Assembly: GCF_039778605.1 (NCBI RefSeq) | Contig: NZ_CP156060.1 | Span: 2,728,001-2,792,000, forward strand | Source of the DNA: Flavobacterium sp. WV_118_3 | GTDB taxonomy: Bacteria; Bacteroidota; Bacteroidia; Flavobacteriales; Flavobacteriaceae | DNA: 64,000 nt | Reading direction: 5' to 3' | Shown here: in pieces, positions 52,634 to 58,005 of the stretch | Layout: every line of letters begins with the position of its first letter | Numbering within the stretch: the stretch's first letter is position 1 | The notes under the pieces: model-generated | Databases searched by the model: none | Seen by the model: only the letters and a program-made list of their open reading frames with translations | Told to the model about the DNA's origin: nothing | Made by a program: the position numbers and the translations under genes

Positions 52634-53773
52634 TTAGTTTTTCACTACTTTTTCTACAAACACCCCTTCGTTGGTTTCGATTTCTACAAAATAGATTCCC
52701 GGCTTTAAATGACTCATATTGATGGATTGCTTTCCTTTTCCGTTACGAAACGCTTTGGTTTCGTATACAAAACCGCTTGGATCGATCACTTTAGCACTAC
52801 GAATCTCTTTCCCTTCGGCTGGTGCTATATTCAAATCGCTGTTGGTTGGGTTTGGATATACGTTGTATTTTTTAACATCTGCAAGCTCAGCCGTCATGTC
52901 TTCAGCTACGTTACGTCCAAATACCGGATCTCCAGGTACAGGTTCAAGTTTGTTTAGACATGATCGAAATGTTTTCGCCCAACTGTAATCCGTCCAACCA
53001 ATTTCACCACTATTCACAACATAGCTAATTGCCGTTCCCGACATACTTGTTGTTTTATATACCAGCTTAATTGTATAGGTTGTACCAGCGGCACAATCGT
53101 AAAAACTAGCTGTAGGATTAATAGTAGCCGTAGCTGCTCCGGAAGCATTCAACAAGGTCACTTTATAATCGGCAGTAGGACAAGTCCCCAAAGCATTTGT
53201 TACTCTTAAATATAATTTACCGGCATTTGCATAATTTCCTGTTACATTAAATCCGATATAACCATTATACAGTGGCGGATTACTATTAGGCGTAAGCTTA
53301 CAATATGGCGCAAAACTTAAGCTAACAGACGGTGCTGTTTCTCGCGTCACTATAATTTTGATATTAAATGTTGTTATTACCGGATCCGGCAAACTCGACC
53401 CATCTTCACAGTACCCGGTTACCGTATAACTATTTACTCCAACTCCCAATGTCCCCGGAATTGTTATTATATTGCTTCCAGATGATGAGTTTACTGCACC
53501 TAATGCATTGCTTAAAAATAACTTTTTTGTATAATTTGTCGGACAAGAATACGGAACGGTTATATTAAACGTCCCCGTTAATTGGTTGGCAAAATACGGT
53601 ATGGTTACATTATACATATACGTCACCGGACTTCCAGAAGTTGTTGGAGCCGGCATACTTAATGCATTTGTAGTCCCTAAAGTCAAAGTTTGCCCATTTA
53701 CCGACAAGGTTGTTAGTAAAAACAATCCGCACACAATCGCAGCTCTTTTTACCTCGAAAATAATTTTTTTCAT
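52634..53773 (-). CDS. Type IX secretion cargo protein with type A sorting domain (copy A)
   Basis: The 379-residue protein has a signal peptide (to about NGQ28), a beta-rich Thr/Ser/Asn body without known motifs, and a C-terminal type A sorting domain. The sorting domain starts VYPNPTNSDLNIAPAEGKE near residue 305 and ends with GIYFVEIETNEGVFVEKVVKN. The domain directs export through the type IX system and attachment at the surface. Its upstream region is duplicated before copy B, with the same -7 box and repeats, so both are probably controlled together. Confidence 0.9.
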   Translation of the reverse strand: MKKIIFEVKRAAIVCGLFLLTTLSVNGQTLTLGTTNALSMPAPTTSGSPVTYMYNVTIPYFANQLTGTFNITVPYSCPTNYTKKLFLSNALGAVNSSSGSNIITIPGTLGVGVNSYTVTGYCEDGSSLPDPVITTFNIKIIVTRETAPSVSLSFAPYCKLTPNSNPPLYNGYIGFNVTGNYANAGKLYLRVTNALGTCPTADYKVTLLNASGAATATINPTASFYDCAAGTTYTIKLVYKTTSMSGTAISYVVNSGEIGWTDYSWAKTFRSCLNKLEPVPGDPVFGRNVAEDMTAELADVKKYNVYPNPTNSDLNIAPAEGKEIRSAKVIDPSGFVYETKAFRNGKGKQSINMSHLKPGIYFVEIETNEGVFVEKVVKN

Positions 53774-53798: not shown

Positions 53799-53937
53799 AC
53801 AAAACTATTCGCATCATGTACTAAAACACCCGTAAAATAGCAGTTTGTGACGAATACTATACTAAATAGTGACGAAATTATCTTTCGATATTTATCTATT
53901 TTACAAACACCTTTTATTTTGGGACGATCTTTTTTAC
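53799..53937 (-). promoter_or_regulatory. Regulated promoter of cargo gene A
   Basis: On the minus strand TAGTTTTG (53800-53807) is an exact -7 box without a recognisable -33 box, as expected for an activated promoter. Upstream lie the direct repeats 53847-53854 and 53869-53876. The whole region can be aligned by eye with 55283-55419 before cargo gene B. Confidence 0.65.
53847..53876. promoter_or_regulatory. Direct repeat pair, candidate LytTR site (cargo gene A)
   Basis: GTGACGAA occurs at 53847-53854 and 53869-53876, exactly 22 bases apart, two turns of the helix. A weaker third copy (GGGACGAT) lies at 53921-53928, 52 bases further on. LytTR regulators bind pairs of short direct repeats about 21-22 bases apart. 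The near repeat starts 47 bases from the -7 box. Confidence 0.6.
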
Positions 53938-54010
53938 TCTCTTTTAGTTTGAAAAATAGCTTGATCGCATTCGATCCTAAATCACTCCAAACGCAACCTC
54001 CAAAAACAAC

Positions 54011-54046
54011 AAAACCCGTCAGATTTGATTAAATCCGACAGGTTTT
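54011..54046 (-). terminator. Terminator of the second T9SS cargo gene
   Basis: On the minus strand a 16-base stem forms (54011-54026 with 54031-54046) with two G-U pairs and a 4-base loop, 18 bases after the stop at 54065. The two mismatches of the plus strand are pairs only on the minus strand, which shows its direction. Confidence 0.75.
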
Positions 54047-54064
54047 ATTTGAGTTACTAATTTA

Positions 54065-55258
54065 TTATTCTTTTATGATTTTATGTCTTTCCACTCCTTT
54101 TTCGGTAGTGATTTCAATAACATATAACCCTTGTTTAAGACCGGTAAGGTCTACTTGCTGAAGATCGCCTTTTTTGTTTTGTTCTGTTTTTACGATCGTA
54201 TTGCTTAAATTATAAACCGTATATCCGGATACTTTTTCTTTGGTGTTGATACTAACAACATCTTTCACCGGATTAGGGAATAACTTCACACCAGATGTAT
54301 TTTCTTCCGTTAAAAATTCTCCTATTTCTTTTGAATCAGATACATCTACAACCGAAGCGGTTCTACAACCCATATCGAAACGAACTAAAACCATTTTACA
54401 GGTCCATTCCGGTTCGCCCACACAGATCTGGAGACGATAATAACGGTCTTGCCCGGCTAAAGATGGTGGGCTTTGAAGCAATCCTCCTTTTAAAACCGCT
54501 AACGATGGGCTCGCCGTAACCTGAGCTGGTGTTGGTGCTGTAAAATAATGCTTATTATTAAGCATTTTGTCCTGAACCACGATATTATCCGGAGCCTGAC
54601 CAGCAAACCATCCGCCCCATTCTAAATTTCCGGTACTTTCCCACCAACGATTGGATTCGGCTACCGCCATAAAATAGTCGGATTCATTACTAGTTAGATC
54701 GGCATCCATAACTAATGCTTGTGAATAACATGGAGATAACGGGGATGCATCCGCCGGAATAGTCATCCCATTTACGGTAAAGTTCGGCACTGCTTTTGGT
54801 TTTACCTGAACCGTTCCGATATTGGTATATTTTTCTTCGTTTGCCATAGTAGCACAAGTTGTACCAGATGAACCCGTAGGATTGAAAACAATTTTTACTC
54901 TGTATTCGTATTTAGTCGCATGAGCTTGATAAATCATACATGTCCCGGAATACGACTCGACAGTTCCAAGGTTTGGAAACGGAGTATTGGGCGTTACACT
55001 TCCCCAGGTTCCCGATGTGCCGTTTGTAATATTTCTGCGCTCTAATGAAAGAGAATAGCTTCCCGCACAAAATGTATTGGAATAAGACGAAACCGAAATT
55101 CGTACTTCATAGCTAGCCGGATAAAGCGTACTATTCGGATAAACCGTTATGTTCGCACCCAACGCCGGAGAAAATTGCAGGTTTCCTGTTAACGCCGCAA
55201 AGAGATTTGTACTCATAAAGAGTAGAAATGCACAAAAAAGTAATGCTGTTTTTTTCAT
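54065..55258 (-). CDS. Type IX secretion cargo protein with type A sorting domain (copy B)
   Basis: The 397-residue protein has a signal peptide (to about LFAAL), a Thr/Ser-rich body with paired Cys residues, and a type A sorting domain starting LFPNPVKDVVSINTKEK near residue 328 and ending GLYVIEITTEKGVERHKIIKE. The body differs from copy A (little sequence likeness by eye), so the two share control and export but perhaps not function. It lies just upstream of copy A and downstream of the LytTR regulator gene. Confidence 0.9.
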   Translation of the reverse strand: MKKTALLFCAFLLFMSTNLFAALTGNLQFSPALGANITVYPNSTLYPASYEVRISVSSYSNTFCAGSYSLSLERRNITNGTSGTWGSVTPNTPFPNLGTVESYSGTCMIYQAHATKYEYRVKIVFNPTGSSGTTCATMANEEKYTNIGTVQVKPKAVPNFTVNGMTIPADASPLSPCYSQALVMDADLTSNESDYFMAVAESNRWWESTGNLEWGGWFAGQAPDNIVVQDKMLNNKHYFTAPTPAQVTASPSLAVLKGGLLQSPPSLAGQDRYYRLQICVGEPEWTCKMVLVRFDMGCRTASVVDVSDSKEIGEFLTEENTSGVKLFPNPVKDVVSINTKEKVSGYTVYNLSNTIVKTEQNKKGDLQQVDLTGLKQGLYVIEITTEKGVERHKIIKE

Positions 55259-55282
55259 AAAAAAGTTTTAGAGGTTATTACC

Positions 55283-55419
55283 ACAAAACTATTCGCAACA
55301 ACAGCAAAAACAGTTGAAAAATCGCAATTTGTGATGAACAGTGTTTCAAATAGTGACAAAACAACCTTTTGATATTAACCCGTTTTACCAACACCTTTTA
55401 TTTTGTGATGGCTTTTTTA
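55283..55419 (-). promoter_or_regulatory. Regulated promoter of cargo gene B
   Basis: The minus strand carries the same -7 box TAGTTTTG (55284-55291), at 25 bases from the start codon against 26 in copy A, followed upstream by the same direct repeat layout. Confidence 0.65.
55331..55360. promoter_or_regulatory. Direct repeat pair, candidate LytTR site (cargo gene B)
   Basis: GTGATGAA (55331-55338) and GTGACAAA (55353-55360) lie 22 bases apart, with a third variant (GTGATGGC) at 55405, again 52 bases further. Distance from the -7 box to the near repeat is 47 bases, as in copy A. Confidence 0.6.
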
Positions 55420-55440
55420 CCCTATATTAAATCCTTTGTC

Positions 55441-58005
55441 TTAAAAGACGATTTTATCCAGTTCTTCGACATAGGTTTCGCCTACCGGTATCTCCTGTTT
55501 TTTGATCAATACCATTTTTTTGGTTTTCTGTTCCACTTTGTCAATGCGTATGATATACGAACGATGTACCCGTAAAAATTCTAACGGATCAGGTACCTTA
55601 CTGATAAAATCGCCTATTTTACATCGCATGACGTATACTTTTTCTTCGGTCACAATATCCATGTAGTTTCCGGAGGATTTGACATACAGAATGGTGTTGG
55701 TCGGAATCCGTATTTCCTTACCTTGTTCTTTAAATACAAAATACTTTTCTTTCTTTTTGATTTTCCGCACCCATAATCGCAGTAATTCCCGGATAATATC
55801 TTTATTGTACGTTAGTACCCGAATTCTGAAAAAGAGATAAATTAAGGCTCCCAATGCAGCTATTACGATAATAATAAACCACCAGGTTGTCCAAAATGGG
55901 TTGCGAATTGTGATGGGAAGACGGATCTTTTCATCTGAAAAAAGACGGTTGTCTTCCAAAACCTGTACTTGTAATTCATAATGTCCCGGCGGGATAAATT
56001 CGTAGGCAATTTTGCGATCGCTGGTGTAATTCCAATTCTCGTGTAGTCCTTTTAATTTATAGCGATAGACCTGTTCTTTTCGACCATAGGCAACCGATTC
56101 AACCCAAAAATCGAGCTGGTTTTTATCATACGACAGGGACAATTGTTTTGCCGGTTTATCCAGAATCGTACTATTAACCGCTATTGCATTTAATCGCAGA
56201 AAGTATTTCCGCTTATTAAAAATTGCTTCAAAATTGTTTTTCGCGATACTACACAAACCATTGGCCGTAGCTACATATATGGTATCGTTTACAATTTCTA
56301 CATCCCGAATCTGATTTTCTGACAAACCATCGGATGTTGTAATATAACGTACCTTAAACGTACCGTCTTTGTCAAATGTAATTCTGTTGAGTCCATAGTT
56401 TGTACAAGCCCAAATGGTATTTTTATCTTCTACATATACTTCTGTCACCAAATCGTCCGACAATCCCTTTGATTTGTCAATATTCATGGTCGCACCCGTA
56501 TGCGGATTGTAAACCACCACTCCGACACCTAAGCTGGCGAGATAAAAAACTTTTCGTTCCGGTTCATAATCCATATCATCAAATCGGTAATTGAGCAAAC
56601 GCTTTTTTATCGTAACATACTTTTCACCTCCATTACTCACTTTGATGCCTTTCATCGAAGCGCAATAATAGTTACCGTCATGCTCCGAAACATCGTGTAT
56701 ACGGAACATTAGGGTGTCTATTTTCCGAACCTTTGCTTCCTCAATTACATTGAGAATACCAAAACGCGAGATAATCGGTACCGGAGTATCGTCCGATGCT
56801 TTTAAAACGCCTCCAAGACAAATCATTTGTTTTCCGGTATCGGTATAAAGCATCCCATCAACCATATAATAGGTGCATTTTTCTGCTTTATAATATTGTA
56901 CAATTGCCGGTTTGTTTGTCAATCCGCGATACAACAATACTAATGCACCTTTTTGGGTTCTTTTATAAACATCGCCATTATAGCACCCTAAAAACAACTC
57001 CCCTTCCGCATTACGGGTTAACGAGTAAATGTAGGTTCCTTTTAGTATATTTTTAGCTATTTTTTCTTCCTGTTCGTAAAAAACGCCTCCATTAACCGTT
57101 GAAAACCATCGCGAATTGAAATTATCTTTAAAAATCCGGGAAACAGAATGTCCATTGAGACTTCTTTTTACGACTTTTCCGTTTGTATCGTATACAAATA
57201 TCCCTTTCCCTCTATAACTAATCCAAAAATGATCCGCATCGTATTCGCCACTTTCCAATGGCTCGGAATTTTTACCTGAAATGAGAAGCGGATTTCCTTT
57301 TTTTCGAAAAATCCATACCTTTCCTTCCGTATAAACTACCTTAATGTCCTTAAAGCTAAAAAATCTTTTTATGGATTCATTTATTCTGGCATAGGGCGTA
57401 AACTCCGATTTTCGCTCTGAAAAATATTCGATTCCTTGTTTTTTATTAATCTTTTTATAGTGAAAATACCGCGGCTCTTCTGTTGGTAATTTTATTTCAG
57501 AAATACACGTAAGCGTTCCTTTTGCATCGATTTTAAGATAAAAACCGGAAGTCGTAAAAAAATGTAAGGCATTTTGAGCATCAACTGCTAATGAAATGAT
57601 TAAAAATCCGGACAGATTTCTTTCTTTAAAAAAATTTTCGATAACGTTATTATACCGATAGGGTATAAATTTTTCGGATCCGTTTTCAAAATAGAATAGT
57701 TTACCGTTAAAGGTAGTACACCATATCTGATCGTTTTCCTGAGGAAAGAAATCGAAAACGGTAATATCGGTTAGTCCGTCTTTGGGTTCGAATTTTTTAA
57801 ATTTTGATCCATTGTAATTTGCCAATCCCCGATCGGTAGCAAACCACATCACTCCGTTTTTGTCCTGAAAAATATCGTAGACCTCATTACTGGGCAGTCC
57901 ATTTTTCTGTTTAAAGTTTTTTAAAGTGACATTTTGTGCCATTACATTCATGTAAGGCAATAGAAATACTAACAGGATTAACCTGCAAACGGGTTTTAGG
58001 GGCAT
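55441..58005 (-). CDS. Membrane-bound propeller sensor with LytTR DNA-binding domain
   Basis: The 854-residue protein joins sensing and DNA binding in one chain. After a signal peptide, a large periplasmic region has propeller repeats with the two-component regulator pattern (MWFATDRGLANYNG, IWCTTFNGKLFYFENG, RWFSTVNGGVFYEQE, IWACTNYGLNRITF). A Y_Y_Y-type domain follows (LHENWNYTSDRKIAYEFIPPGHYELQV), then a membrane helix near 715-737. The cytoplasmic LytTR domain covers about the last 100 residues (KEIRIPTNTILYVKSSGNYM, VHRSYIIRIDKVE). No kinase domain is present, so it acts as a one-component sensor. The two cargo genes beside it are its likely targets. Confidence 0.88.
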   Translation of the reverse strand: MPLKPVCRLILLVFLLPYMNVMAQNVTLKNFKQKNGLPSNEVYDIFQDKNGVMWFATDRGLANYNGSKFKKFEPKDGLTDITVFDFFPQENDQIWCTTFNGKLFYFENGSEKFIPYRYNNVIENFFKERNLSGFLIISLAVDAQNALHFFTTSGFYLKIDAKGTLTCISEIKLPTEEPRYFHYKKINKKQGIEYFSERKSEFTPYARINESIKRFFSFKDIKVVYTEGKVWIFRKKGNPLLISGKNSEPLESGEYDADHFWISYRGKGIFVYDTNGKVVKRSLNGHSVSRIFKDNFNSRWFSTVNGGVFYEQEEKIAKNILKGTYIYSLTRNAEGELFLGCYNGDVYKRTQKGALVLLYRGLTNKPAIVQYYKAEKCTYYMVDGMLYTDTGKQMICLGGVLKASDDTPVPIISRFGILNVIEEAKVRKIDTLMFRIHDVSEHDGNYYCASMKGIKVSNGGEKYVTIKKRLLNYRFDDMDYEPERKVFYLASLGVGVVVYNPHTGATMNIDKSKGLSDDLVTEVYVEDKNTIWACTNYGLNRITFDKDGTFKVRYITTSDGLSENQIRDVEIVNDTIYVATANGLCSIAKNNFEAIFNKRKYFLRLNAIAVNSTILDKPAKQLSLSYDKNQLDFWVESVAYGRKEQVYRYKLKGLHENWNYTSDRKIAYEFIPPGHYELQVQVLEDNRLFSDEKIRLPITIRNPFWTTWWFIIIVIAALGALIYLFFRIRVLTYNKDIIRELLRLWVRKIKKKEKYFVFKEQGKEIRIPTNTILYVKSSGNYMDIVTEEKVYVMRCKIGDFISKVPDPLEFLRVHRSYIIRIDKVEQKTKKMVLIKKQEIPVGETYVEELDKIVF

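Follow-up and report, generated by a model that had tools for sequence, protein, structure and literature searches.

In a stretch of 64,000 nucleotides from Flavobacterium sp. WV_118_3 (contig NZ_CP156060.1, positions 2,728,001 to 2,792,000; hereafter the window), a gene for a putative membrane-bound LytTR regulator is followed on the minus strand by two genes, cargo 1 and cargo 2, encoding predicted substrates of the type IX secretion system (T9SS). A pair of direct repeats precedes both cargo genes at the same distance from the -7 box and recurs beside homologues of the regulator in related bacteria. In our view, the regulator is probably a one-component, membrane-bound LytTR activator with a sensor like that of hybrid two-component systems (HTCS) but lacking the kinase, which has a dedicated operator and belongs to a removable cassette.

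A propeller sensor joined to a LytTR domain

The genome is a single contig of 3.85 Mb, and its nearest named relative at the locus is Flavobacterium supellecticarium, whose regulator is 90% identical. The regulator gene is preceded by an HI0933-like gene, from which it is separated by a 70-bp gap. The genes are, in their order on the minus strand:

55441-58005, minus strand: regulator, 854 amino acids (Pfam Reg_prop, Y_Y_Y, LytTR)
55450-55713, minus strand: LytTR DNA-binding domain of the regulator, residues 765-852 (PF04397, E 1.2e-14)
54065-55258, minus strand: cargo 1, 397 amino acids, T9SS type A sorting domain (PF18962, E 1e-10; TIGR04183)
52634-53773, minus strand: cargo 2, 379 amino acids, T9SS type A sorting domain (PF18962, E 4.3e-13)

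A preliminary description of the locus had taken the neighbour of the cargo genes for a propeller sensor carrying a LytTR domain. Indeed, Reg_prop, Y_Y_Y and LytTR domains are all present, the last scoring 54.7 bits for PF04397 against a Pfam cut-off of 22.6. The protein comprises a signal helix, the propeller sensor (residues 42-588 in the structure model), the Y_Y_Y domain (643-700 in Pfam) and the C-terminal LytTR domain. In the model (mean predicted local distance difference test (pLDDT) 73.8, predicted template modelling score (pTM) 0.46), propeller strands extend up to residue 588 and are followed by a beta domain (602-700), a helix that reads as transmembrane (708-727), a linking helix (731-749) and a LytTR fold at the end. 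The profile of the regulator matches the HTCS sensors 3v9f, 4a2l and 3ott and also, at E 0.0034, the response-regulator domain 3d6w; histidine kinase, receiver and AraC domains were not detected in it with Pfam at E 1e-3. Among the 14 LytTR matches of the genome, that of the regulator is the only one to sit in an open frame of more than 290 amino acids. Identity with the T9SS component PorZ was rejected, the score for NF052228 (53.1 bits) being far under the cut-off of 260.

Both cargo proteins are predicted to be exported through the T9SS by virtue of their type A sorting domain, beyond which family-model searches returned no family above cut-off. This domain is also the sole long similarity between the two proteins, and the structure model of cargo 2 is of low confidence (mean pLDDT 55.6). 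Genome-wide, the sorting domain Por_Secre_tail has 74 matches, 73 of them above cut-off.

Paired direct repeats upstream of both cargo genes

The following elements were located upstream of the cargo genes:

55331-55360, minus strand: operator of cargo 1, TTTGTCAC-N14-TTCATCAC, perfect match, one of two in the genome
55284-55291, minus strand: -7 box TAGTTTTG of cargo 1, 39 nt from the operator and 25 nt from the ATG
55384-55412, minus strand: decayed distal 21-bp pair of cargo 1 (half-site 55405-55412, partner 55384-55391; half-site profile)
53847-53876, minus strand: operator of cargo 2, TTCGTCAC-N14-TTCGTCAC, perfect match, one of two in the genome
53800-53807, minus strand: -7 box TAGTTTTG of cargo 2, 39 nt from the operator and 26 nt from the ATG
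53900-53928, minus strand: decayed distal 21-bp pair of cargo 2 (half-site 53921-53928, partner 53900-53907; half-site profile)

The promoter layout proposed previously was borne out when its coordinates were checked. Both genes share an identical -7 box 25-26 nt from the ATG, the -33 box is missing from both promoters, and GTGAYRAA pairs with a 22-base period are present at both, the near copy starting 47 bases from the far edge of the -7 box. Written as TTYRTCAC-N14-TTYRTCAC, the operator ends 39 nt upstream of the -7 box. Alignment of the two upstream regions, suggested as a check, gave 111 identities in 157 columns with a score of 172, the best of 500 shuffles reaching 68. Since cargo 1 is missing between regulator and cargo 2 in F. 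supellecticarium and the upstream regions are this similar, one promoter was probably copied from the other. The two window promoters are thus probably duplicates and hence do not count as two independent observations.

A search of the genome for GTGAYRAA-N14-GTGAYRAA at other T9SS genes had also been suggested. Only two perfect copies exist, both at this locus. Set against the 74 Por_Secre_tail matches, they look like the mark of a local regulon of two genes rather than of general T9SS control. Counts of imperfect copies were near background, with 38 hits in the genome at up to two mismatches compared to 32 for the reversed-pattern control, and with 13 hits in the window at up to three mismatches compared to a shuffled mean of 8.05 (7 of 100 shuffles reached as many); therefore, the perfect pairs alone stand out.

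A weaker third copy 52 bases further on had been reported for both genes and was recovered at 53921-53928 and 55405-55412. It is probably one half of a second, distal 21-bp pair that has decayed in the window, where the half-site at -52 is accompanied by a degenerate partner at -31. Scored with a half-site profile trained without the window and without loci L072-L076, pairs as good appeared in 2 of 300 shuffles for cargo 1 and in none of 300 for cargo 2. A clear distal 21-bp pair is present at -63/-42 in the F. amniphilum promoter and in both F. humi promoters; the profile revealed none at the promoters of Flavobacterium sp. H122 or F. terrae. Judged by this profile, the distal pair is an optional second pair.

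The site accompanies the regulator in many relatives

Relatives of the regulator were obtained from a species-wide scan (one genome per species, 84,980 species), of which the best 80 of 157 confirmed relatives were used, and sites with up to one mismatch were counted within 700 bases of the regulator. A site was found beside the regulator at 42 of the 80 homologue loci: 5/6 with a regulator identity of at least 45%, 25/32 at 35-44%, 8/13 at 32-34%, 3/17 at 28-31% and 1/12 below 28%. When gap lengths of 10 to 18 nt were allowed between the half-sites, 67 pairs were detected near the regulator, 38 with a 13-nt gap, 28 with a 14-nt gap and one with another, i.e. 66 of 67 have a period of 21 or 22 bp. 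The reversed control yielded a single pair near the regulator, ruling out chance repeats, and the 67 pairs fall within 0.116 Mb, compared to 11 pairs in 1.04 Mb far from the regulator.

On a tree of 71 regulators, from which 10 of 81 had been dropped for a broken or partial frame, the site label changes 10 times, compared to a mean of 24.1 with shuffled labels. All six members of a Flavobacterium clade that includes the window carry the site. The linkage of sensor, site and exported product is kept in five other named Flavobacterium, with a regulator identity of 90% in one and 45-49% in four, and at the 25 loci out of 32 in the 35-44% class. Loss of the repeats in related genomes, which the preliminary description had considered damaging to its proposal, was addressed by this comparison, and the operator was kept beside the regulator in these relatives.

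A genus search covering 150 genomes (E up to 1e-60) detected the regulator in three, the window's own among them, and a family draw detected it in 16 of 397 genomes, again including its own. In genome G098, a perfect site lies between the regulator and a cargo-2-like gene, and in G149 a perfect site in divergent arrangement precedes a protein that by eye resembles a BspA-type repeat protein. Perfect matches in G239 and G441, where the regulator was not found, were discarded as orphan sites, as they lie inside a reading frame conserved between both genomes. Taken together, the observation is real and not due to chance, and the linkage is well supported by comparison; that the regulator binds the site, and with which sign it acts, is what we infer from it.

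Geometry of the cargo-side promoters

For the cargo side, 38 site rows representing 35 distinct promoters were considered, as L136 and L137 have overlapping pairs. Left out were the 21-bp sites on the regulator side, L105, whose site stands in front of the regulator gene, and sites with the next start codon less than 55 or more than 180 nt away; L118:9676 was kept, though its reading frame is not among the listed targets. The consensus of 30 cargo-side 22-bp sites is TTcgTCACTaTTTtatanggtnTTCGTCACAAA. Exact TAnnTTTG boxes within 62 nt start 38, 39 or 40 nt after the site in 21 of 22 cases. At least five of the six -7 box letters occur at these three offsets in 33 of the 35 promoters, and the remaining 59 offsets together give 34 matches. 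TTTG at the -33 spacing is present in 1 of 33 family promoters. The -7 box of F. psychrophilum spans -12 to -5, according to the portion of PMC9723704 available, which would put the end of the proximal half-site near -52 and the centre of the pair near -66. With a period of about two helical turns and a place immediately before the promoter, these paired direct repeats conform to the type of target associated with LytTR domains.

A second, inverted site in front of the regulator gene of relatives

A 21-bp pair also precedes the regulator gene in 20 relatives, where its orientation relative to that gene is inverted. A TAnnTTTG box follows this inverted site in 19 of the 20, at 37/38 nt in 14 and at 47/48 nt in five (L089, L095, L112, L118 and L132), i.e. 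about one helical turn further. At L089, L095, L112, L114 and L132, where the target lies on the opposite side of the regulator, the inverted site keeps its place; it is therefore part of the regulator's promoter. Feedback by the regulator on its own gene would be the natural reading. In the window, the 70-bp gap before the regulator shows no such site. A bolder proposal, which we hold tentatively and with somewhat more doubt than conviction, is that one membrane regulator reads two operator versions: the forward one, mostly with a 22-bp period and 38-40 nt from the box, would direct cargo expression, while the inverted 21-bp one at 37/38 or 47/48 nt would control the regulator gene. Spacing and orientation would then be a code by which a membrane-tethered dimer keeps feedback apart from output, in a cassette that swaps its exported products, be they T9SS proteins, lipoproteins or GG-leader peptides, and keeps the promoter.

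Targets and proposed mobility of the cassette

From 43 reading frames 37 targets were retained; L105 (the regulator itself) and the regulator-side sites L089:1260, L095:8706, L114:8546, L118:8714 and L132:8715 were excluded. In overlapping assignments, 24 targets match Por_Secre_tail, 9 the BspA-type family LRR_5 and 3 cadherin. Nine further targets look like lipoproteins, six by a simple lipobox pattern and three by eye. This leaves four, of which two are Kordia peptides (L077, L085), one is a fragment with a broken frame (L131) and one is truncated by a contig end (L146). The idea of a self-contained surface-display regulon thus stands insofar as sensor, site and exported product occur together, but the products are not only type IX cargo, as they include lipoprotein-like proteins and Kordia peptides with GG leaders.

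At the Kordia loci L077, L079, L084, L085, L087, L094 and L113, the regulator is followed by small GG-leader-like peptides. These mostly follow the pattern MKK..LKSL..GG and are reminiscent of ribosomally synthesized and post-translationally modified peptides. Half-site pairs with a 21-bp period precede the peptides at six of the seven loci, with none at L087. Among five peptides tested, two match no model and three match lanthipeptide or radical S-adenosylmethionine leader models, in each case with a score below cut-off. Control of such genes by a LytTR protein would parallel bacteriocin control in Gram-positive bacteria.

Within Flavobacterium, F. amniphilum and F. humi have the operator promoter in front of cargo 1, F. 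terrae, Flavobacterium sp. H122 and F. supellecticarium have it in front of cargo 2, and the window has it in front of both. The cargo 1 relatives adjoining the regulator are 35% (F. amniphilum) and 34% (F. humi) identical, the cargo 2 relatives 39% (F. terrae), 41% (H122) and 99% (F. supellecticarium). Two sites lie further away: one, a perfect 22-bp site at L130:14440-14469, is at 1.9 kb from the regulator and precedes a further protein with a T9SS-like C-terminus, and the other, a second site in F. humi (L075:6510), is 3.5 kb away and precedes a lipoprotein-like gene. Some regulons would therefore extend beyond the adjacent gene.

The HI0933 locus was surveyed in 31 genomes, which returned 30 loci, the window's own being left out. 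Of the resulting 29 Flavobacterium loci, 17 have a TspO or mvaD homologue no further than 1.5 kb from the HI0933-like gene and 12 showed neither; the regulator was seen at none of the 29. In F. terrae, H122 and F. supellecticarium, regulator and cargo lie between the HI0933 and TspO/mvaD genes, and in F. humi and F. amniphilum they are located elsewhere. The locus thus exists in a module-free form in other Flavobacterium, and we propose that regulator, site and cargo constitute a removable cassette. In F. supellecticarium (L076), cargo 1 and its promoter (window 54065-55440) are absent between regulator and cargo 2. The genes around this gap are 93-100% identical to those of the window, and therefore a single cargo gene was recently gained or lost.

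Discussion

The sequence data directly show the parts of the system, the operator with its spacing and constant position at promoters, its association with the regulator and the module-free locus of other Flavobacterium; the following model of topology, DNA binding, activation and feedback is predicted from them. The regulator would be a one-component transcription factor in the inner membrane, with its propeller/Y_Y_Y sensor in the periplasm and its LytTR domain in the cytoplasm, the two being connected directly by a single transmembrane helix followed by a linking helix. Once the sensor is occupied, two LytTR domains would bind the TTCGTCAC half-sites two helical turns apart, the proximal one ending about 52 bp before the start point of a promoter with a good -7 box and no -33 box. 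The bound regulator would recruit RNA polymerase, and the cargo product would be exported to the surface through the T9SS. In relatives, the regulator would also bind the inverted 21-bp copy at its own promoter, probably as positive feedback. Regulator, site and cargo would travel as a cassette.

Several observations weigh against this model. The half-site is a poor match to the 9-bp LytTR consensus of Gram-positive systems. No site was found within the 70 bp before the regulator gene of the window, the regulator promoter of L100 (1 of 20) lacks TAnnTTTG at the fixed distance, and the cargo-side promoters of L077 and L100 (2 of 35) have no -7 box at the expected place. At up to one mismatch, 38 of the 80 homologue loci are without a site, six of these being cut by a contig end within 400 bases. 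In the 35-44% class, seven of 32 loci have none, and six of the seven extend at least 400 bases on both sides; therefore, the operator has diverged or is not universal in the family. Finally, the genome holds 13 other LytTR matches whose proteins could bind the repeats.

Another DNA-binding protein, for example one of these 13, might thus be the one that reads the site, the propeller protein being a mere neighbour. Indeed, a perfect pair in genome G236 (L185:6063-6091) lies right behind a gene that by eye resembles a response regulator, and the propeller regulator was not found there; this pair may be a chance match or belong to another LytTR system with a similar site. However, in the draw of 397 genomes, the 16 that carry the regulator contain 14 perfect matches, 11 of them no more than 1 kb away from it. 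A further 62 are spread over the 381 genomes in which no regulator was found (of six inspected, four are inside reading frames and two are not). Moreover, sites track the regulator whatever the cargo, divergent or downstream, and we consider a foreign binding protein quite improbable. Repression by the regulator, with the operator blocking the cargo promoter, is unlikely, too. There is a precedent in CoxC, a membrane LytTR regulator that represses from repeats overlapping the -35 box, as described in the accessible portion of PMC11347149. Here, however, 38-40 nt separate the end of the upstream site from the -7 box, so that the two do not overlap, and 32 of 33 promoters lack the -33 box. In addition, site-to-box distances lie within 3 nt or about one helical turn apart, as contact with polymerase would predict.

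The resemblance of the two upstream regions at 111 of 157 columns and the absence of cargo 1 between regulator and cargo 2 in F. supellecticarium would also suit repeats that are a mere leftover of promoter duplication. Yet the same pair, with diverged spacers and flanks, occurs at nearly the same distance in five further Flavobacterium species, where it precedes cargo genes, and in other genera, where it precedes unrelated genes. Pure duplication is contradicted by these comparative data and very improbable. Even less credible is an RNA element, i.e. a leader structure or attenuator instead of a protein-binding site: it was rejected since the repeats lie upstream of the -7 box and thus outside the predicted transcript, and since the copy on the regulator side has an inverted orientation with respect to its gene. 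No evidence in favour of an RNA element was found, though the region was not folded.

With activation by the propeller regulator as the preferred reading, operator and promoter geometry are assigned, from sequence alone, to a class of membrane regulators for which searches of open-access text turned up no described target site. Periplasmic sensing would be tied directly to the choice of surface proteins in T9SS bacteria, and the perfect 22-bp pair, confined to two targets in the genome, can be used to seek such regulons in other Flavobacteriales.

Comparison with known systems

In open-access full text, where subscription papers are largely missing, we recognised no description of the target site of a propeller-LytTR regulator. 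Y_Y_Y domains are reported in 7.7% of transmembrane transcription regulators (PMC10269533); in the part of that paper available the protein class is therefore counted, but apparently not its operators. CoxC is likewise a one-component membrane LytTR regulator acting on direct repeats, but differs, as far as the text at hand describes it, in its MHYT gas sensor, its role as a repressor and its three repeats overlapping -35 (PMC11347149). The HTCS of Bacteroides (3v9f, 4a2l, 3ott) share the propeller and Y_Y_Y sensor, whereas the window regulator has a LytTR output and no kinase, receiver or AraC domain was found in it. AgrA-type LytTR response regulators are soluble, are phosphorylated via a separate kinase and have another consensus. 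They are alike in binding as a dimer to two direct repeats, which in the AgrA promoters are centred near -60 when promoter-proximal (PMC4227749, seen in part).

The remaining comparison is with the LytTR Regulatory System (LRS). A separate membrane inhibitor, as in an LRS, was not encountered at the locus, where sensor and LytTR domain are one protein and the neighbours are the HI0933-like and cargo genes. Repeats before the regulator's own promoter, another LRS trait, are present in 20 relatives and were not seen in the 70-bp gap of the window. The LRS-like operons of B. thetaiotaomicron and B. ovatus (PMC6193735, available in part) differ in having several transmembrane segments, an NfeD/DUF2154 membrane protein as partner and another half-site sequence; the available text mentions neither a propeller sensor nor surface cargo. 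The same source places LytTR repeats immediately before the promoter and gives their spacing as 12 bp in most cases and occasionally 11 or 13 bp. In the B. thetaiotaomicron operon, 11-bp repeats lie 11 bp apart before the TATCTTTG box, the distance from repeat end to TATCTTTG being 34 nt as summed from Table 3 of that source. With a membrane-embedded LytTR regulator and direct repeats of 22-bp period upstream of a Bacteroidetes promoter, these operons are the nearest precedent for the system in the window.

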